Shown here: piece by piece, positions 6,996 through 40,688 of the stretch
Layout of the letters: each line of letters starts with the position of its first letter
Position numbering within the stretch: position 1 is the stretch's first letter
Origin: Streptomyces sp. NBC_01294
Lineage (GTDB): Bacteria > Actinomycetota > Actinomycetes > Streptomycetales > Streptomycetaceae
Assembly (NCBI RefSeq): GCF_035917235.1
Contig: NZ_CP108423.1
Span: forward strand, 3,227,001 to 3,291,000
Length of the DNA: 64,000 nucleotides
Direction: 5' to 3'
Notes under the pieces: generated by a model
Databases searched by the model: none
What the model was told of the DNA's origin: nothing
The model's input: only the letters and a program-made list of their open reading frames with translations
Translations under genes and position numbers: made by a program

Positions 6996-8420
6996 GTGCA
7001 CCCCCAAGGACGGTGGCGGCATCCCGTGCGTGGGCTGAAGCCCCTGACGTCGGCGGGCGCCCGCCGGCGGACCGAGGCGCTGCTCCTGGTCTTCGTCATC
7101 GTCATCGCCGTCTTCGGCCACGCCGCCGCGGGCCTCGCCATGAACGACCGACTGCCGCCCAACCTCGCCGGCTTCACCATCAGCATGACCCTGCTCTCGC
7201 TGGTGGGGCACTTGGGCGTGCGCCGCTTCGCGGCCTACGCGGATCCGCTGGTCTTCCCGCTCGCCATGCTGCTGACCGGGCTGGGGCTGGTACTGATCCA
7301 CCGCCTCGACCAGGGCTACATCGAGCGGTGGAACTCGGACGCGAACGCCCCGGGCCAGCTGATGTGGACGGTGGTCGGCGTCGGCGCCTGCATCGCGGTG
7401 GTGGCCCTGCTGCGCGACCACCGGCTGCTGCAACGGTTCATCTACATCACGATGGCCGTCGCCCTGGTGCTGCTGATCGCGCCGGCGTTCTTCGGCGCGG
7501 ACACGTACGGCGCCAAGCGGTGGATCATCCTCTTCGGCTTCTCGGTACAGCCCGGCGAGTTCGTGAAGATCATGATCGCGATCTTCTTCGCCGGCTACCT
7601 GGTCATCCACCGCGACTCGCTCGCGCTGACGGGCCGGAAGTTCCTCGGCATGCGGCTGCCCCCGATGCGCCAGCTCGGCCCCATCATCACGGTGTGGATC
7701 GTCTCGATGCTGGTGCTGGTCTTCGAACGCGACCTCGGCACCTCGCTGATCTTCTTCGGCGTGTTCGTGGTGATGCTGTACGTCGCCACCGAGCGCACCA
7801 GCTGGATCATCTGCGGCCTGCTCATGGCCGCGGCCGGCGCCTTCGTGGTCGGCTCGACGGAGCCGCACGTCAAGGCGCGCGTGGCGGCCTGGCTCGACCC
7901 GCTCTCCGTCTACTGGCCGACCCCGCCCCCGGGCGTCACCTCGGACCAGTCGGCGCAGGCCCTGTTCAGCTTCGGCACGGGCGGCATGTCCGGCACCGGC
8001 CTCGGCATGGGCCACCCGGAGCTGATCAAGTTCGCCGGCCGCAGCGACTTCATCCTCACGACGGTGGGCGAGGAGCTCGGCCTGGCCGGGGTCATGGCGG
8101 TCCTGATCCTGTACGCGCTCCTCGTGCAGCGGGGGCTGCGGATGGCGCTCGGCGCCCGCGACCCCTTCGGCAAACTGCTCGCGGTGGGCCTGGCCGCGGC
8201 GCTGGCCCTGCAGGTCTTCGTGGTCGCGGGCGGCGTCACGGGCCTGATCCCCCTGACGGGCAAGGCCCTGCCCTTCCTGGCCAAGGGCGGCTCGTCCCTC
8301 CTGGCCAACTGGATCATGATCGCCCTCCTCCTGCGCATCAGCGACAGCGCGGAACGCCAACGCGAGGCGGACACCCACGGCCCAGCAGAAACCACGATCA
8401 CGCCGGCGGTACGGGTGTAG
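6996..8420 (+). CDS. FtsW/RodA/SpoVE-family (SEDS) peptidoglycan polymerase
   Basis: The 474-residue polytopic protein has about ten to twelve hydrophobic segments. Family motifs are visible: RWIILFGFSVQPGEFVKI, ERDLGTSLIFF with the catalytic-type Asp, the long loop with FSFGTGGMSGTGLGMGHPE, and TTVGEELGLAGV. SEDS proteins polymerise lipid II together with a class B PBP. It is most like the RodA-related extra copies of Streptomyces; which division or sporulation role it has cannot be said. The start is uncertain: GTG at 6996 or GTG at 7026, with only a weak AAGGA 15 bases before the latter. Confidence 0.9.
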   Translation: MHPQGRWRHPVRGLKPLTSAGARRRTEALLLVFVIVIAVFGHAAAGLAMNDRLPPNLAGFTISMTLLSLVGHLGVRRFAAYADPLVFPLAMLLTGLGLVLIHRLDQGYIERWNSDANAPGQLMWTVVGVGACIAVVALLRDHRLLQRFIYITMAVALVLLIAPAFFGADTYGAKRWIILFGFSVQPGEFVKIMIAIFFAGYLVIHRDSLALTGRKFLGMRLPPMRQLGPIITVWIVSMLVLVFERDLGTSLIFFGVFVVMLYVATERTSWIICGLLMAAAGAFVVGSTEPHVKARVAAWLDPLSVYWPTPPPGVTSDQSAQALFSFGTGGMSGTGLGMGHPELIKFAGRSDFILTTVGEELGLAGVMAVLILYALLVQRGLRMALGARDPFGKLLAVGLAAALALQVFVVAGGVTGLIPLTGKALPFLAKGGSSLLANWIMIALLLRISDSAERQREADTHGPAETTITPAVRV

Positions 8421-8573
8421 GGGGCGGGCGGGGCGGGGCGGGGCGGGGCGGGGCGGGAGGGGCGGGAGGGGCGGGGCGGGGTCGTGCGGGAGGGGCGGGG
8501 CGGGGTCGTGCGGGAGGGGCGGGGCGGGGTCGTGCGGGAGGGGCGGGGCGGGGTCGTGCGGGAGGGGCTTTGG
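8421..8573. repeat. G-rich tandem repeat, about 24-bp unit
   Basis: Directly after the SEDS stop the plus strand carries runs of GGGGC and then about four copies of a 24-bp unit (GTCGTGCGGGAGGGGCGGGG plus GCGG). Dozens of closely spaced G-runs could form G-quadruplexes in DNA or in the 3' end of the transcript. No coding potential. Confidence 0.85.
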
Positions 8574-8955
8574 GAGGCCTGATCCCCTCACCCAGCATCA
8601 GGGATGGTTTGGGGGTTTCCCGTCAGTCTCATCGTCTCTCCGTGTCGGGCCGGTCCCTCAAGGGCGCTCCTTCGTCGCGTCGCTGCGCGATGGCCTTCGG
8701 CCACCCTTGACCGACCGACCCGCCACGGAAATCCGAAGACCGACGGGAACCCCCCAAAGGAACGGGCCGGCCATTGCAAATTCAGGGACGGGCCGATCAG
8801 CGCCCCCCGGGCAAGTCGGGGGTAGCGCACCAAATCGCTACGCGCTTCTCGCCGATGGCGGCTGCAGGCCGTCTGTGGCCGGACATAGGCCGCCACAGAT
8901 CGCTACATGCTCCCCGAAGAGGGCGGCTGACGGCCGTCTGGGGCTGATGAGGGGG
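8556..8955 (+). repeat. Long inverted repeat, copy A
   Basis: This segment is the reverse complement of 13066-13460 (copy B). The central part is nearly identical: over 155 bases I count two differences, and about 90 percent identity continues to about 8905, after which the copies diverge. Two related modules beginning ATCGCTACGCGCTT-like occur inside, near 8834 and 8899. The 4-kb interval between A and B holds the mobile and regulatory genes of the island. Confidence 0.9.
8606..8760. repeat. 155-bp palindromic MITE-like element, copy A
   Basis: The two ends are imperfect inverted repeats of about 55-60 bp: GGTTTGGGGGTTTCCCGTC at one end, and the complement of GGGACGGG-type sequence (CCGACGGGAACCCCCC) at the other. 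The whole could fold into one long hairpin. It codes for nothing recognisable. An equal-length copy lies at 13257-13411 in opposite orientation. Confidence 0.8.
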
Positions 8956-9207
8956 CGGACGCTCGGCTCAGCCGAGGTGTACCCCGGTCAGGGCGGAGGT
9001 GGCATCACAAACGGACGTCCAGATCGGGGCAATTGTTGCAATCTATCGGTCTCTTTGACCCTCCACGCCGCCAGACCCGGGTACACATCGGAATAGCCGT
9101 TGTCCGGCGCTTTCCCTCCCCCAAGCGGCCGTCGGACGCCCTCATGGGGGAGCACGTAGCGATCTGACGCGCCTGACCAGCCGAGACTGATTCTGTTCAC
9201 GAATTCC
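8956..9207. other. Intergenic repeat debris
   Basis: No gene. The stretch contains GAGGTGTACCCCGGTCA (8975-8991) related to GATGTGTACCCAGG in copies B and C, and an inverted partial module (complement of ATCGCTACGTGCTCC, about 9152-9166). It looks like rearranged pieces of the same repeat family. Confidence 0.5.
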
Positions 9208-9229
9208 GGTTCTGGCTCAAGTTCTGTGG
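9208..9229. repeat. Left terminal inverted repeat of the ISL3-derived unit
   Basis: Begins GGTTCTGGCTCAA and differs from the right end at one position (G instead of T at base 14). Confidence 0.8.
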
Positions 9230-9256
9230 TCGATCACCCTGCGTATCGCCCGCGTC

Positions 9257-9784
9257 TCATGCGGTCCCAAGATGCGGCACGAGATCGCGCGCCATACGCA
9301 CGTTGGGCAACCTGCCTCGCCACAACTCACGCTCACCCGTGAGCTGGAACCTGTGGCGCTCGTAAAACCGGATCGCTCTCCCGTTGTACTCAGTCACCCA
9401 CAGGTGCACGGGAGCTCCGTCCGCCCATAGGAAGAACTCACCCATCAGCTGACCGCCGATGCCCTGGCCTTGGGCTTCGTTCAGCAGGTACATCGGTCCG
9501 AGGGTCACTGGTTCGTCTCGGCGGCCACAGAGGACACCAGTGATCTCAGCCCCGGATCGGACGACACGGCAGAAGAGCCGTTCAGGGTGGCGTGCGACCT
9601 CGTCAATGAACTCTCGCCGCTGCGCAATGCCCTCGGTGGTGACCGCGGACCCTCGCTGCTCGCGGATCCACGTCTCATCAACGCCGGCTTCTTCGTTGGG
9701 GTAGGTCTGGAGCCAGGCCGTGAGCTGCATACGGCCCACGGATGCAGCATCGTCGGGACTGGGCGCTTCGATTCGGTGGACCAC
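9257..9784 (-). CDS. GNAT-family N-acetyltransferase
   Basis: A 175-residue GNAT domain. The N-terminal substrate lobe begins IEAPSPDDAASVGRMQLTAW, the acetyl-CoA pyrophosphate loop is NEAQGQGIGGQLM (Q/RxxGxG/A type), and the end NGRAIRFYERHRFQLTGERE is the typical last strand. A GTG at 9784 gives a normal GNAT N-terminus. The reading frame, however, continues upstream into an ISL3 transposase fragment up to 9928, so a fusion protein of 223 residues is also possible. The acceptor substrate is unknown. It lies inside ISL3-type inverted repeats and may have been carried by them. Confidence 0.8.
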   Translation of the reverse strand: MVHRIEAPSPDDAASVGRMQLTAWLQTYPNEEAGVDETWIREQRGSAVTTEGIAQRREFIDEVARHPERLFCRVVRSGAEITGVLCGRRDEPVTLGPMYLLNEAQGQGIGGQLMGEFFLWADGAPVHLWVTEYNGRAIRFYERHRFQLTGERELWRGRLPNVRMARDLVPHLGTA

Positions 9785-10092
9785 GGCGCCATTCTCGACG
9801 AGGACGGTGCCATGGTTCCGGCCCTTGCGTGTGGCGTACTCATCGACTCCGACCACCCGCGGCGCAGGCACTACCGGCTCAGGAAGGGCCTCAACCAGGC
9901 GCCGCACCGTGCTACGGCTGACAGCCACCCCAGAGCACGGGCCAGACGGGCGCTACTGGAGTACGACGCTTCGTCCGGCACTGGGCACGTCAGCGGGAAA
10001 CCGCAGGTAGGAGCCGTGGACCAGGCTGGACCAGGTCCCGCACCAGCCAGAGCACGACCTAATTCACAGCACCGAACGGTCAGCCCACTCAT
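9785..10092 (-). pseudogene. ISL3-family transposase fragment, frameshifted
   Basis: Residues encoded at 9928-9790 read STVRRLVEALPEPVVPAPR and VVGVDEYATRKGRNHGTVLV, the helix-turn-helix end and first catalytic strand of ISL3 transposases (first Asp of the DDE set in VDEYA). The upstream part continues in another frame (ARLARALG near 9940), and one missing G at the junction explains the shift. The rest of the catalytic domain is gone, replaced by the GNAT gene. Confidence 0.75.
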
Positions 10093-10413
10093 CCCGGTCG
10101 TAGCTCATTTTCGGGCGACTTCGAATGCGCCCTGCGACGCTCAGCCATCAGCTGGCGTGGCCGCTCCACAGAAATTGAGCCAGAACCGCAGTTTTGACAG
10201 CACCAGGTCACGGGGATGTTCGGATCGGCACCGGCTGTCCACTGCGAGTGAGGCAGACAGCGGCAAGGCGGCGATCGAGAGTCACCTGTCAGGGTGCAAT
10301 CCTCTGAGGCCATGCGCGTTCGGCCAGGTCGGGAGTCGCTGCCCCCTAGCGTGATTCGGGAATGATCCAGGCGGGCCGCCGTCGGGATCCGGACCCTACG
10401 GAGGTACCTGACC
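10093..10413. other. Intergenic region before the YceI gene
   Basis: Contains the right end of the ISL3-derived unit (10166-10187) and, from 10188, about 225 bases without a gene. TTGACA at 10194-10199 sits just outside the inverted repeat and could be the -35 box of a promoter for the YceI gene, but no good -10 follows. The YceI ribosome site GGAGG is just before ATG 10414. Confidence 0.45.
10166..10187. repeat. Right terminal inverted repeat of the ISL3-derived unit
   Basis: The reverse complement begins GGTTCTGGCTCAAT and matches the left end at 21 of 22 bases. Confidence 0.8.
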
Positions 10414-10965
10414 ATGGCCGTCTCGCTCCCCGAGCTCACCGGGGACTACGTCCTTGATCCGCCCCACACCCGGATCGGATTCGTCGCCCGCCACGCCATG
10501 GTCACCAAGGTGCGCGGCGCCTTCCACCAGTTCGAGGGCACCGCACACTTGGACGGCGCCGACCCGGCCGGGTCCACCGGCCAGGTGGTGATCAAGACGC
10601 AGAGCATCGACACCGGCGTCGAGCAGCGCGACCAGCACCTGCGCACCAACGATTTCCTGGACGTGCCGAACTTCCCCGACATCACCTTCCGCACCACCGC
10701 GGTAGAGCAGAAGTCCGACGCCGAATACCGGGTCAGCGGCGACCTCACCATCAAGGACACCACCAAGCCGGTCACCATCGACTTCGAGTACACCGGCAAT
10801 GCCGTCGACCCCTACGGCAACCTGCGCGTCGGTCTGGAAGGCTCGGTGACCATCTCCCGCAAGGAGTTCGGTGTCACCTGGAACGCAGCCCTGGAAGGCG
10901 GCGGCGTCCTGGTCGGCGACAAGATCGTCCTGGAGTTCGACATCTCCGCGATCAAGCAGGGCTAG
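10414..10965 (+). CDS. YceI-family lipid-binding protein
   Basis: The 183-residue protein covers the complete YceI lipocalin-like domain: the start YVLDPPHTRIGFVARHAMVTKV, the ASIDTGVEQRDQHLRTNDF-type helix (IDTGVEQRDQHLRTNDFLD near residues 68-86), the strand DLTIKDTTKPVTIDFE and the closing GDKIVLEFDISAIKQ. YceI proteins bind isoprenoid or fatty-acyl chains; here there is no signal peptide, so it should be cytosolic, as is common in actinobacteria. GGAGGTACCTGACC precedes ATG 10414, a strong ribosome site. It lies within the inverted-repeat island but has ordinary codon use. Confidence 0.92.
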   Translation: MAVSLPELTGDYVLDPPHTRIGFVARHAMVTKVRGAFHQFEGTAHLDGADPAGSTGQVVIKTQSIDTGVEQRDQHLRTNDFLDVPNFPDITFRTTAVEQKSDAEYRVSGDLTIKDTTKPVTIDFEYTGNAVDPYGNLRVGLEGSVTISRKEFGVTWNAALEGGGVLVGDKIVLEFDISAIKQG

Positions 10966-11069
10966 CAGCGCCCGCCCGACCGGCGCGCGAGCGGTACAGG
11001 AAGCGAGGCGCGGTCCTCGAAGTCAGGGCCGCGCCGTCACGATGCCGTATGCCATGGGCTAACAGCCGA

Positions 11070-11204
11070 GTGGGGTTGCTTCGGTTTGGCGGACATCCCG
11101 AGATCTGGGGTTGCACCGGAGAGGGATGTCCATGATGGAGAGTACGAAACCACCGCTGCCTGACCAACACATAGAGCCCGTCCGCCAAACAGGAACGACC
11201 CCAC
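11070..11204. mobile_element. 135-bp MITE-like element
   Basis: The 25-bp ends (GTGGGGTTGCTTCGG at 11070 and the complement of TCCGCCAAACAGGAACG ending at 11204) are inverted repeats matching at 21 of 25 positions. A second, nested pair GGACATCCC/GGGATGTCC (11091-11099, 11123-11131) is also present. There is no transposase, so it would be a non-autonomous remnant. No clear target duplication. Confidence 0.55.
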
Positions 11205-11235
11205 GACAGGTACTGCGGACCTCTCGGCGTCTGCG

Positions 11236-11420
11236 ATGCGTCTGGGGCTGGCCAAGGCCGATTCGAGGGGTGGGAAGGGCGATCCATCGACTCAGCCGAT
11301 GTGTACCCAGGTCAACCCACGGCGGGATCCCACGCTCGCGCCCGAACATGGGCAATCGCGGCGCAATATCGACCCCTTCCTCAGACGGCCGGATCGACCG
11401 CACGCGGATGGCCGTTTCGC
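11236..11420 (+). repeat. Island repeat, partial copy C
   Basis: Matches the complement of copy B between about 12850 and 13090: CTGGGGCTGGCCAAGGCCG, GATGTGTACCCAGGTCAA, GGCGGGATCCCACGCTCGCG and CGGATCGACCGCAC occur in the same order, with an internal deletion. Same orientation as copy A. Confidence 0.8.
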
Positions 11421-11521
11421 CGCTCACGTCGAAAAGTCGTGCAGGCATGGACGCGACACTCGGGAGGCGAGAAGGAATGCCCAGACACTGACCCACGGAG
11501 GACGGCGTCTGCCGGAAGGGG

Positions 11522-12280
11522 CTAGGCGTCGAAGTCGTACTCCAGCACGTAGGAAGCGGAGTCCAGCGTCATCTCGTTGACCTCAACGGCCCGCCCGCCC
11601 TCGGCGAACGCGGTACGGACGATCTGGATGACAGGCGTGCCCATGGAGAGCGCCAGCCGCTCGGCCTCTCCGGCTGAAGGCATCCGGGACCGGATTTCCT
11701 CTCGGAAGTGAAGGGGCGCATGCCCCAGCTCGGCCAGGCGCGCGTACGTCCCGCCGGGTCCGGTGTCGGCCTGGGTGATGGCAGAGTCCCCAACGACGTC
11801 CGCCGGCAGGTACGACGTCGCGACGAGCACGGGTTTGCCATCAAGCACGAAGCGGCGGCTGCGTGCCCACACCTGAGTCCCTGCGGGAATACCAAGGGCG
11901 TCGGAGATGCGGCTGTTCGTTTCTTCTTCCCGCACTTCGATCTGATCGACGACCAGCTCTCGATCCTCGGAATCTGCAGACCAGATGGAGCGGCCCGATC
12001 CCCACTGCTCGTGCGCGAGTCGCTGGATTCCGCGCCGACGCAAGGGCCTGAACGCCCGGACGAAGACGCCGGCACCCTTCCGCGCCTCCGCGAGGCCTTC
12101 GTTCTGCAGCACGCCGAGGGCCTGACGTGCGGTCATCCGGGCGACCTCGTACGTGGCCATGAGGTCGTTCTCGCCCGGCAGACGGTCGCCCGGGCCGTAT
12201 TCGCCCGCCTGGATAGCCGTCCTCAGCTCGTCAGCGATCCGCTGGTACTTCGGCTGGCGGGTGCTGCCCTGGCTGGTCAT
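11522..12280 (-). CDS. GntR/HutC-family transcriptional regulator with UTRA domain
   Basis: A 252-residue regulator. The winged helix is at residues 10-75 (YQRIADELRTAIQAGEYGPG, then MTARQALGVLQNEGL), and the UTRA effector domain follows at about 100-245 (WARSRRFVLDGKPVLVATSY and the AEGGRAVEVNEMTLDSASYV end). It resembles regulators of the KorSA type found on Streptomyces integrative elements. A TCTAGAGA operator overlaps its own ribosome site (GGAGAAGGAG), and two more lie in the divergent promoter, so it probably represses both itself and the two small genes. The effector is unknown. Confidence 0.92.
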   Translation of the reverse strand: MTSQGSTRQPKYQRIADELRTAIQAGEYGPGDRLPGENDLMATYEVARMTARQALGVLQNEGLAEARKGAGVFVRAFRPLRRRGIQRLAHEQWGSGRSIWSADSEDRELVVDQIEVREEETNSRISDALGIPAGTQVWARSRRFVLDGKPVLVATSYLPADVVGDSAITQADTGPGGTYARLAELGHAPLHFREEIRSRMPSAGEAERLALSMGTPVIQIVRTAFAEGGRAVEVNEMTLDSASYVLEYDFDA

Positions 12281-12299
12281 GAACCGATCACTCCTTCTC

Positions 12300-12311
12300 C
12301 TCTCTAGACAC
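12300..12311. promoter_or_regulatory. Predicted GntR operator O1
   Basis: CTCTCTAGACACC on the plus strand; on the minus strand TGTCTAGAGAGG, a TCTAGAGA half-palindrome directly at the GntR ribosome site. It fits negative autoregulation. Confidence 0.6.
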
Positions 12312-12369
12312 CCTAGGGCTACAGGCAGGCCACCGCACGCACCAGCCTTGAGGTCCCACTTCGACCGAG

Positions 12370-12381
12370 ATCTCTAGAGAT
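12370..12381. promoter_or_regulatory. Predicted GntR operator O2
   Basis: ATCTCTAGAGAT, a perfect 12-bp palindrome, lies just upstream of the -35 box of the small-gene promoter. Confidence 0.7.
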
Positions 12382-12384
12382 GTA

Positions 12385-12414
12385 TTGACGAATGAAGCAG
12401 CGTTCGGCTGTAGT
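12385..12414 (+). promoter_or_regulatory. Predicted promoter of the two small genes
   Basis: TTGACG (12385-12390), 18 bases, TGTAGT (12409-12414). Operators O2 and O3 flank it on both sides, at the -45 and +5 regions, so repressor bound to both would exclude RNA polymerase. Confidence 0.6.
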
Positions 12415-12420
12415 GGATAC

Positions 12421-12432
12421 ATCTCTAGAGAG
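12421..12432. promoter_or_regulatory. Predicted GntR operator O3
   Basis: ATCTCTAGAGAG, differing from O2 at the last base, located at the expected transcription start. Confidence 0.7.
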
Positions 12433-12472
12433 GCCGTTCACGATGCGGCCTCCCGAGCAGGGAGTGATCTGC

Positions 12473-12628
12473 ATGCAGCAGTGCCGCGATGCGTCCAGAG
12501 TCGACACGGAAGACGCCTCCTCGGGGAGGGTGGCGGCCATAGGTGAGCCCAGCGCGGATCTGTTGGACCGGGCGCTGGTCGGCTGGGAGCGCTTCCTCGC
12601 CACCCTGCAGGAGGCACCCGATGAGTGA
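12473..12628 (+). CDS. Small protein of unknown function, 51 residues
   Basis: First of two tiny genes under the GntR-flanked promoter. The start ATG at 12473 is chosen because GGGAG lies 8 bases upstream and because earlier in-frame ATGs (12392, 12443) fall in or next to the promoter. The C-terminal half (LLDRALVGWERFLATLQEA) is an amphipathic helix. Two Cys are near the start. No family is recognised. Its last codons overlap the next gene (ATGAGTGA), so the two are translated together. Confidence 0.65.
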   Translation: MQQCRDASRVDTEDASSGRVAAIGEPSADLLDRALVGWERFLATLQEAPDE

Positions 12629-12830
12629 GCAGTACGAATACGTGCCGCACCGGCTCCCGCGCCGCCGTGTCCGCGACCTCGCTTCCGGCGTCGAGGGTGA
12701 GCTGATGGCCGTGATCAACGAGAACGTCTCGGACGCCGGCCTCGACCGCTGGATGGAGCTGGCCTACATCCGTGGAGCGTCCGGCCGTGAATTCACCACT
12801 TGCGTCACCAACATTGAGGCCGCGGATTGA
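12621..12830 (+). CDS. Small protein of unknown function, 69 residues
   Basis: The ATG at 12621 overlaps the stop of the preceding small gene by eight bases. The protein is charged, starts with a basic patch (HRLPRRRVRDL) and continues with a helix (GELMAVINENVSDAGLDRWM). There is no signal peptide or membrane segment. The family is not recognised. The overlap and the shared promoter suggest that the two small proteins act together. Confidence 0.65.
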   Translation: MSEQYEYVPHRLPRRRVRDLASGVEGELMAVINENVSDAGLDRWMELAYIRGASGREFTTCVTNIEAAD

Positions 12831-13065
12831 GAGTCCGATCAGCCATCCGAAGAGATGTGCGGTCGATCCGTCCGCCTGAGGCAGGAACAGCAACTGATGC
12901 CGGCTATACCGATGCGCACTCGGGCCTGGGAGAGCAAGGAGCCGAATAAGCTGGCGTTTTGTCGCGATGGCCCATGTTCGGGCGCGAGCGTGGGATCCCG
13001 CCGTGGGGTTGGCCTGGGTACACATCGGCTGGGCCGACGGATCGCCCTTCCTACCCCTCGAATCG

Positions 13066-13460
13066 GCCTTGGCCAGCCCCAAACGGCCGTCGGCCGCCAT
13101 CGCGGAAAAGCGCGTAGCGATCTGTGGCGGCCTATGTCCGGCCACAGACGGCCTGCAGCCGCCATGAGCGGGAAGCGCGTAGCGATTTGGTGCGCCCCGG
13201 GCTCGGCCCGGGGTCGCTGATCGGCCCGTCCCTGGATAAGGAATGGCCGGCCCGTTCCTTTGGGGGGTTCCCGTCGGTCTTCGGATTTCCGTGGCGGGTC
13301 GGTCGGTCAAGGGTGGCCGCAGGCCATCGCGCAGCGACGCGACGAAGGAGCGCCCTTGAGGGACCGGCCCGACACGGAGAGACGATGAGACTGACGGGAA
13401 CCCCCCAAACCATCCCTGATGCCGAGTGAGGGAATCAGGCCCCCGAAGCCCCGCCGCACG
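13066..13460 (-). repeat. Long inverted repeat, copy B
   Basis: The reverse complement matches 8556-8955. Homology to copy C extends this repeat further left, to about 12840, so the full unit appears to be about 620 bp. Copy B begins right after the second small gene and ends shortly before the deacetylase operon. Confidence 0.9.
13257..13411. repeat. 155-bp palindromic MITE-like element, copy B
   Basis: Same length as copy A at 8606-8760 and opposite in orientation. I count two differences in 155 bases. Its own ends are inverted repeats, so each copy can form a hairpin. Confidence 0.8.
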
Positions 13461-13569
13461 ACCCGGCCCCGCCCCGGTGGGCATCCCGCCCACCCGAAGC
13501 CCCGCTCGTGCCGTCGCAGCCACCCGTCCCGTACGAGATCCCCGAACCCCGCACCCCCGCACCCCCGCG

Positions 13570-14535
13570 CTACAGGTAGTCCTCCAGGCGGCCGATGCTG
13601 TAGCCCTGCTCGTGGATTCGTTGGAGCATGCGCGTCGTCATCTGGGTTTCCGTCGCGCCCTTGAGCTCGCCCGGGCCGCGGAAGTGGGCCAGGATGATGT
13701 CGCCCGGGCGGAGGGCGGAGCCCTCGGCGTACTGGAAGTTGTTGATCTGCATCGAGACCCGCCACAGGAGCAGGGACGAGACTCCGCACTCCGAGGCGGC
13801 CCGGAGGGTGTCGTCGTTGTAGTTGCCGAAGGGCGGGCGGAAAAACGGCGGGCGTTGGCCGAAGCGCTTCTCCAGGCGGTCCTGCTGGCCGCATATCTCC
13901 TTCTTCTGCCCTTCGAAGGACAGGGTCCGGAGGTTCGGGTGCGTCAGCGTGTGGTTGTTTATCGTGCTCGCCGAGCCGTTGTCGCGGAGCTTCTCGAAGT
14001 GCCCGTAGTCCGACGAGGCCACGTTGTCCGTGAGGAACATGCTGATCGGCAGCTTGAGGTCGGCCGCCATCTTCAGGAACTCGGGGTCCTTCTCGGCGCC
14101 GTCGTCGAAGGTCAGGAAGACCACCTTCTCCCCGGCCGGGACGGGTATTCGGTCTATCACCGGCACCTTGCCCGGGCCCGCCTTCGGGATCTGGGGCTTC
14201 TGGGCGGGCTTCGGCGCGTAGGCGACGGGGGCCGTCAGCCCCCACTTCTTGTACGCCGCGTCGGACGGGCTCCCCGGCGGGGACGCGGTCCCCGCCGGGG
14301 AGGCGGGGCCGGCGCCCTTGGGGTCCTTGGAGTCCTTGGAGTCCTTGGAGTCCTTGGGGCCCTTCGACGCGTCCGAGCCCTCCGCCCCCTGCGCCCCCTC
14401 CGCCCCCTGCAGGTCCTGAGTCGTCTTGCGGCCCAGGCGTTCGATGGGGTCCACGCTGTCCCCGCACCCCGTCAGGGACAGCGCGAGCGCGCCGGCCGCC
14501 AGCGTTCCGGCTACCAACCGGCGCGCGTGCTTCAC
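13570..14535 (-). CDS. Polysaccharide deacetylase (NodB-domain) lipoprotein
   Basis: A 321-residue exported protein. The N-terminal signal ends in a lipobox (LSLTGC, Cys24), followed by a Ser/Lys/Asp-rich linker with KDS repeats (residues 60-72). The NodB domain runs from about 130: FLTFDDG (metal Asp), NNHTLTH (His pair) and RPPFGNYN are intact, so it should be an active metal-dependent amidohydrolase acting on cell-surface glycan. GTG at 14535 overlaps the stop of the upstream paralogue (GTGA), giving translational coupling. Confidence 0.9.
   Translation of the reverse strand: MKHARRLVAGTLAAGALALSLTGCGDSVDPIERLGRKTTQDLQGAEGAQGAEGSDASKGPKDSKDSKDSKDPKGAGPASPAGTASPPGSPSDAAYKKWGLTAPVAYAPKPAQKPQIPKAGPGKVPVIDRIPVPAGEKVVFLTFDDGAEKDPEFLKMAADLKLPISMFLTDNVASSDYGHFEKLRDNGSASTINNHTLTHPNLRTLSFEGQKKEICGQQDRLEKRFGQRPPFFRPPFGNYNDDTLRAASECGVSSLLLWRVSMQINNFQYAEGSALRPGDIILAHFRGPGELKGATETQMTTRMLQRIHEQGYSIGRLEDYL
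14325..14360. repeat. 9-bp tandem repeat within the deacetylase gene
   Basis: Four consecutive GTCCTTGGA-like units encode the KDS repeats of the linker. In-frame repeat number changes would lengthen or shorten the wall-spanning linker without harming the enzyme. Confidence 0.75.
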
Positions 14536-40551: not shown

Positions 40552-40688
40552 GGTGATACTCCTTCATATCTGCACCGGCCGTGTCAGGTACCGGTGTCAG
40601 TTCCCCCGAGGCGGATGCCGCGGGAAAGTTCAGGCAAACCCGGCCGGCGACCTGGGCCGAAGGCCCGGACCGCCGGCGGCGGGGTGGA

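Follow-up and report, generated by a model that had tools for sequence, protein, structure and literature searches.

The window analysed here is a stretch of 64,000 nucleotides from Streptomyces sp. NBC_01294 (NZ_CP108423.1, positions 3,227,001 to 3,291,000), and our subject is an island within it that lies between a SEDS gene (FtsW/RodA/SpoVE; 6996..8420, + strand; Pfam PF01098, E 7.2e-70) and a polysaccharide deacetylase gene (13570..14535, - strand; PF01522, E 1.1e-26). A sequence-only reading had described the island as bounded by a near-identical inverted repeat of about 400 bp with two differences in its middle part, counted there as 155 bases, and this description holds. The arms (8556..8955, +, and 13066..13460, -) fall into one alignment when window positions 7500-14500 are compared with themselves by blastn (8540-8946 against 13476-13075; 407 columns, 90.9% identity), and an ungapped repeat finder returns them as two pieces (8565-8822/13195-13452, 258 nt, 93% complementary; 8825-8946/13074-13195, 122 nt, 89% complementary). 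At their heart is a core which we call PAL (8598..8770, +, on the left and 13247..13419, -, on the right), an imperfect palindrome defined by alignment, fold and model match, whose two copies differ at 2 of 173 bases once the right one is complemented. The left PAL is followed within its arm by two direct repeats of a 65-nt type (8826..8950, +; 76% by the repeat finder) and then, up to the end of an ISL3-derived unit, by the centre of a palindromic element (8951..9201, +), 82-89% identical over 8951-9120 to copies of that element elsewhere in the genome. GC-rich tandem repeats with a 24-bp unit occupy 8421-8566, immediately to the left of the left arm.

The roughly 4.1 kb between the arms carry the genes named in that reading, as Pfam confirms: an ISL3 remnant, a GNAT gene, a YceI gene and a GntR module. 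The first two are fused, the open reading frame (ORF) at 9257-9928 (-) joining a remnant of an ISL3 transposase (residues 2-45; E 1.5e-7, far under the family cut-off) to a GNAT domain. This ORF sits in an ISL3-derived unit (9202..10193, -; repeat finder and domain matches) with 28-nt inverted ends (9202-9229/10166-10193, 89%), for which no 8-bp target repeat was seen by eye and no other copy was found in the same genome beyond a 71-base match at 76%. The YceI family gene follows (10414..10965, +; PF04264, E 9.6e-50), and what had been called an element like a miniature inverted-repeat transposable element (MITE) is probably the stretch near 11070-11210, which has inverted-looking ends by eye, is perhaps a MITE, and has a single partial match elsewhere in the genome (70 bases, 83%). 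The earlier description did not include a second inverted repeat, nested inside the island (11239..11360, +, and 12963..13085, -; two finder matches, 93% and 98%), that flanks the GntR module. This module consists of a GntR-UTRA regulator identified by Pfam (11522..12280, -), two copies of CTCTAGAGA as candidate GntR operators (12372..12431, unstranded) and a gene for a 68-aa protein that we call SMALL (12624..12830, +). The CTCTAGAGA copies are 51 bp apart in the window, and a spacing of 50-51 bp recurs in five of six relatives with the module. No invertase or recombinase gene was found among the scanned ORFs of the island, and an anti-phage defence search with four of its proteins gave no match.

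Also absent from the earlier description is that the outer arms belong to a genome-wide repeat family, which rules out an island private to this genome. The left arm has 27 matches in its own 8.5-Mb genome (G000), where a sequence model of the PAL core, R1 (173 positions, built from 24 copies), finds at least 14 copies above 75 bits among the matches listed; 49 PAL copies are listed for the chromosome of one relative. Intact copies (L028, L029 and L030) are imperfect palindromes of about 1 kb, laid out as edge, PAL, link, 65-nt repeats and centre, followed by the mirror image, and the left part of the island (8556-9170) matches the larger part of such a copy, the match ending near the end of the ISL3 unit. 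A 615-base query from this left part matched 21 of 100 genomes, its own included, 19 of the 21 being of the same genus, and R1 at E <= 1e-10 was positive in 28 of 295 genomes of the genus, again counting its own, in a scan with strict filters that scored at most the best nine copies per genome. The listed copies span positions 2.7-6.7 Mb of the 8.2 Mb in G000 and 1.0-6.2 Mb of the 7.5 Mb in G401, and in G012 they lie near a contig end. A PAL pair is present on a 349-kb contig of G401, and a linear plasmid of Streptomyces sp. NBC_00158 carries one PAL with GNAT, pterin dehydratase and SMALL genes downstream and no second PAL in the stretch examined. Short matches to the PAL tip (21-32% query cover) were seen on plasmids of Nocardia, Kocuria and Mycobacterium, as well as on distant Streptomyces plasmids, one plasmid match lying within an IS110 transposase gene; a phage collection gave no match to PAL at E 1e-5.

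PAL copies commonly lie in pairs. Nine genomes contain 59 neighbour pairs less than 10 kb apart, 58 facing and one on the same strand, a count based on 154 listed copies above 75 bits with coordinates as listed, covering the main contig of G401 and the best nine copies of G113, G122 and G173, which have at least nine each; 37 of the 154 are unpaired. Interiors either have no called genes and measure about 0.6-1 kb, or they contain one gene or a few. PAL folds into a long stem tipped by two hairpins (z -9.1 and -8.8 for single-stranded DNA), and a fold this strong might suggest a hairpin downstream of genes that ends transcripts or affects RNA stability, with pairs arising where two genes converge, as they do around L028, L029, L030 and the window pair, all in G000. 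That PAL is solely a feature of convergent genes is, however, ruled out by pairs flanked by tandem genes (L148, L176, L180) or by divergent ones (L156, L157), where the facing order is unchanged. The covariation term for an RNA is mildly unfavourable (+1.25, with two-sided changes at 6 of 51 pairs), so that nothing speaks for PAL as an RNA, and no credible Rfam family emerged: one scan had no match on PAL and another gave just two miRNA models, both well short of their cut-offs (32.6 of 268 bits and 21 of 100 bits). We regard the hairpin explanation as extremely improbable.

What the pairs enclose often changes while their surroundings mostly persist. We compared 69 loci in eight genomes (20 in G401, 11 in G212, nine each in G000, G238 and G038, six in G054, four in G308 and one in G266), and judged by flanking proteins, in some cases through one flank only, 48 of the 69 sites are common to another genome. 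Where both inner neighbours are orthologous and each locus has two PALs, 12 of 18 locus pairs have interiors whose lengths are more than 300 bp apart; two of the other six, at the SEDS junction, contain different genes, and four are gene-free. The next outward junction was retained in 26 of 30 cases, a figure for sites chosen by the presence of PAL and set against no matched PAL-free control. Recurring gene families occur at different PAL sites. Pfam domains among 41 cargo proteins, taking the best 25 of 52 families, include glyoxalase (VOC), HAD, NUDIX, aldo/keto reductase, MerR, GntR, TetR, CYTH and CutA; labels of PadR, TPR-like and major-facilitator used below were assigned by eye.

The repeats themselves are more alike within a genome than between genomes. 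Mean PAL identity is 92.5% for the two arms of one locus and 90.1% between loci of one genome, and between genomes it is 86.0% where the site is the same and 84.7% where it is not. For 123 of 130 copies the closest copy at a different locus belongs to the same genome, a number that reached no more than 43 in 1000 shuffles of the genome labels. The best copy elsewhere in the genome also exceeds the best same-site copy of another genome for 71 of the 73 copies that allow both comparisons (seven loci whose site was less securely assigned are omitted), although same-genome candidates outnumber same-site candidates here, which favours this outcome and takes some weight from the figure. Because PAL sites are common to genomes, this likeness points to gene conversion, with renewed transposition as the alternative. 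Full-length copies at different loci that are 96-99% alike, some of them oppositely oriented (L187/L189, 98.6% over 1149 bp; L028/L029, 96.3% over 1010 bp), would fit either conversion or recent transposition.

Those full-length copies, together with the facing ends, the dispersal of the family and its presence on a plasmid and on the 349-kb contig, are what one would expect if PAL pairs were the ends of a transposable element, MITE-like and mobilised by a transposase in trans, with gene-bearing copies as composite transposons and the different orientations as independent insertions. In G038, the only genome with a clear split of PAL into two subtypes between pair halves, five of seven pairs combine the two, as left and right ends might. 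Yet the sites are largely common to species, whole multi-gene blocks are reversed in place, as described below, and no target-site duplication was recognised in the GC-rich PAL flanks of two genomes. Nor does any transposase recur: DDE_5 and rve have one match each among the cargo proteins, within the best 25 of 52 families, and the ISL3 scrap of the window is a third single case, so that no recurrent transposase gene emerged from the PAL loci examined, the genomes not having been searched whole for one. On this balance transposition is a rather unlikely account, if one to be taken seriously. The sequence-only reading had entertained a mobile unit inserted between the SEDS and deacetylase genes; this holds only in part, as the arms are copies of a dispersed element that brackets changing genes at common sites and there is no sign of the 4.9-kb segment moving as a whole.

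Rearrangement is indicated by orientation. The GntR module lies as in the window in three of seven genomes (the window, S. avidinii and G054) and is reversed in the other four (NBC_01214, CG 926, G308 and NBC_00249). Between CG 926 and S. avidinii the flanks align directly and a 3.1-kb block of CG 926 is reversed at 88-93%; it contains SMALL, GntR, a TPR-like gene not in S. avidinii, and a 94-aa gene. In S. avidinii an inverted repeat of the 65-nt type (81 bp, 88%) lies 76 and 114 bp from the two block ends, and in CG 926 a 22-bp inverted pair is left at the ends. The module is likewise reversed between direct flanks, at 82-89%, in G054 relative to NBC_00249 and in G308 relative to G054. A VOC gene is reversed as well, at 85%, between Streptomyces sp. 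A1136 and S. cirratus with flanks direct at 92-93%, bracketed by a 31-bp inverted repeat in A1136 and with a 26-bp repeat beside it in S. cirratus. An inverted repeat of 439 bp (86.6%) is present in L213. By manual count at least two orientation changes are needed on the SEDS tree and at least two on the GntR tree. The same segment in one fixed orientation throughout the relatives, which would have spoken against inversion, is therefore not what is found, and inversion, suggested earlier as a possibility, is supported between species.

The SEDS/deacetylase junction allows the same site to be followed more widely. We surveyed 48 loci from relatives that include S. lavendulae, S. virginiae, S. 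avidinii, S. xanthophaeus, S. yangpuensis and S. cirratus; both genes are present in 41, and the other seven, mostly at contig ends, four of them with a piece of PAL, are left out of the counts. The two genes, whose adjacency in relatives the sequence-only reading had named as a check, are less than 300 bp apart in 21 of 41 relatives and farther apart in 20. At least one PAL is present in eight junctions and both in five; none was found at the junction in S. lavendulae, S. yangpuensis or S. cirratus. The contents vary: a VOC gene in G401, PadR and hydrolase genes in G038 (the same in S. lavendulae without PAL), a major-facilitator gene and a regulator in S. toxytricini, the GntR module, and others. 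Six of the 41, besides the window, have the GntR protein at 86-89% identity, and L235 has a different GntR (53%). Read by eye, two short junctions (L217 and L225) resemble scars left by deletion, in which a short hairpin preserves about 25 nt from the outermost part of PAL, and in L228 a piece similar to the 65-nt repeat is retained. Elsewhere in the window, the interior of the deacetylase gene has a run of a 9-base repeat (14311-14364; at least five overlapping copies among the matches listed), and an L17 ribosomal protein leader lies at 40570-40625 (-; RF03132, 66.3 bits).

Since SEDS junctions with genes and no recognisable PAL exist (L211, L215, L222, L227, L232, L233, L234, L244, L128, L131 and L134), one could suppose that these are merely tolerant intergenic places where genes and repeats gather independently, PAL having no role in gain or flipping. 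The recurrence of gene families at different PAL sites and the mostly unchanged outward junctions argue against this, as does SMALL. In the five genomes with long main contigs (G212, with 20 contigs, and G012 excluded), 19 SMALL copies score above 60 bits, and 11 of them have a listed PAL at most 5 kb away where 0.39 are expected, the copies not being independent of one another. We hold independent accumulation to be distinctly improbable. By tblastn SMALL is found at 12 of the 69 loci, in three genomes; in L151 it is just outside the PAL pair, and the window's own genome has the SMALL region a second time in L034 (2023-2277; near 2.6975 Mb in G000), 80% identical and adjoining a single PAL. 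Matches at E <= 1e-5 occur in eight of 20 genomes searched and, at that threshold, in none of the PAL-bearing G238, G038, G122 and G113. A database search returned 419 homologues, with no Pfam domain in the 120 listed, and the best hit of a PDB profile search had E 0.22.

The comparisons establish a repeat family, facing pairs, common sites with changing contents, homogenisation within genomes and opposite orientations between species. On balance we lean towards the view that the island is a site of a dispersed, non-coding palindromic element acting as a recombination boundary, with inversion, loss and swapping of what lies inside it. The two PAL ends of the element face each other, at sites common to the S. 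lavendulae/virginiae/avidinii group, and genes inserted in its middle would be turned round when the inverted arms recombine homologously, removed by deletions, or swapped through exchange with further copies or with incoming DNA. In the window, the element would have been interrupted further by the ISL3 remnant, and the GntR/SMALL module lies within its own nested inverted repeat. Arm identity, homogenisation and the position of the breakpoints make homologous (RecA-type) recombination the likeliest engine, and gene swapping may proceed through exchange between copies.

Several observations count against this interpretation. PAL is present at only eight of 41 SEDS junctions, several others having genes without it. 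Among the eight islands searched for inverted repeats, L131 (G054) and L210 (NBC_01214) have no inverted repeat at E 0.01 and L244 and L211 retain repeats of 22-27 bp only, although in these four the repeats may have decayed. The evidence for inversion consists of comparisons between species, with one genome per species. The GntR and SEDS trees also disagree, G054 and NBC_00249 being joined at 100/99 on the GntR tree, so that exchange between species seems to have occurred as well and some reversals are possibly independent arrivals in the other direction. It is tempting to go further and regard facing PAL pairs as a gene-cassette platform that, at tens of common chromosomal positions and on plasmids, would capture one to a few genes, flip them and swap them between sites and species by recombination between conversion-homogenised arms, with SMALL and its regulators as recurrent passengers, perhaps of a helper or selfish kind, but this we put forward only tentatively and think it on the whole doubtful.

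Homologous recombination between long inverted repeats is known to invert the segment that they enclose, as with rRNA operons or paired insertion sequence copies. The island resembles these cases in its long, similar inverted copies (the window arms and L213), in a segment found both ways round between species with breakpoints at repeats, two of eight islands lacking one, and in having no recombinase gene of its own; it differs in that its repeats belong to a palindromic family and what is turned round is a small gene set of changing composition. Inversion would presumably alter transcription of the GntR module and its neighbours. A site-specific inversion system would have its own invertase or recombinase gene beside the segment, and none lies among the scanned island ORFs. 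Integrons differ in that attC sites are in direct order whereas PALs are inverted, and no integrase was seen among 25 of 52 families for the 41 cargo proteins, genomes not having been searched for one. MITEs and composite transposons share the short, dispersed, non-coding copies with inverted ends (about 1 kb when gene-free) and genes between two inverted copies, but in the loci examined neither target duplication nor recurrent transposase was seen, and PAL copies stay at common sites and are alike within a genome. Repetitive extragenic palindromic (REP) units and the bacterial interspersed mosaic elements (BIMEs) they form are, like PAL, dispersed intergenic imperfect palindromes in inverted pairs, but a REP is 20-40 nt long, far shorter than the 150-173 nt or so of PAL, and PAL pairs enclose as much as several kb in which the genes change. 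That palindromic repeats can be hot spots of insertion is likewise already known, REP/BIME palindromes having been reported as such for some insertion sequences (PMC1525189). Neither facing PAL pairs bounding changing genes at common Streptomyces sites nor the PAL repeat itself were found in the titles and opening abstract lines of open-licence papers. Gene-flux hot spots have been described in Streptomyces, where one gene or many are repeatedly inserted or deleted; they are denser in the chromosome arms and linked to conjugation and to actinomycete integrative and conjugative elements (AICEs), conjugation being proposed as the main driver of gene flux (PMC6722414). The places described here differ in that a palindromic repeat bounds small gene sets, and because that repeat is a defined one, the entry, flipping and exit of single genes become directly testable.

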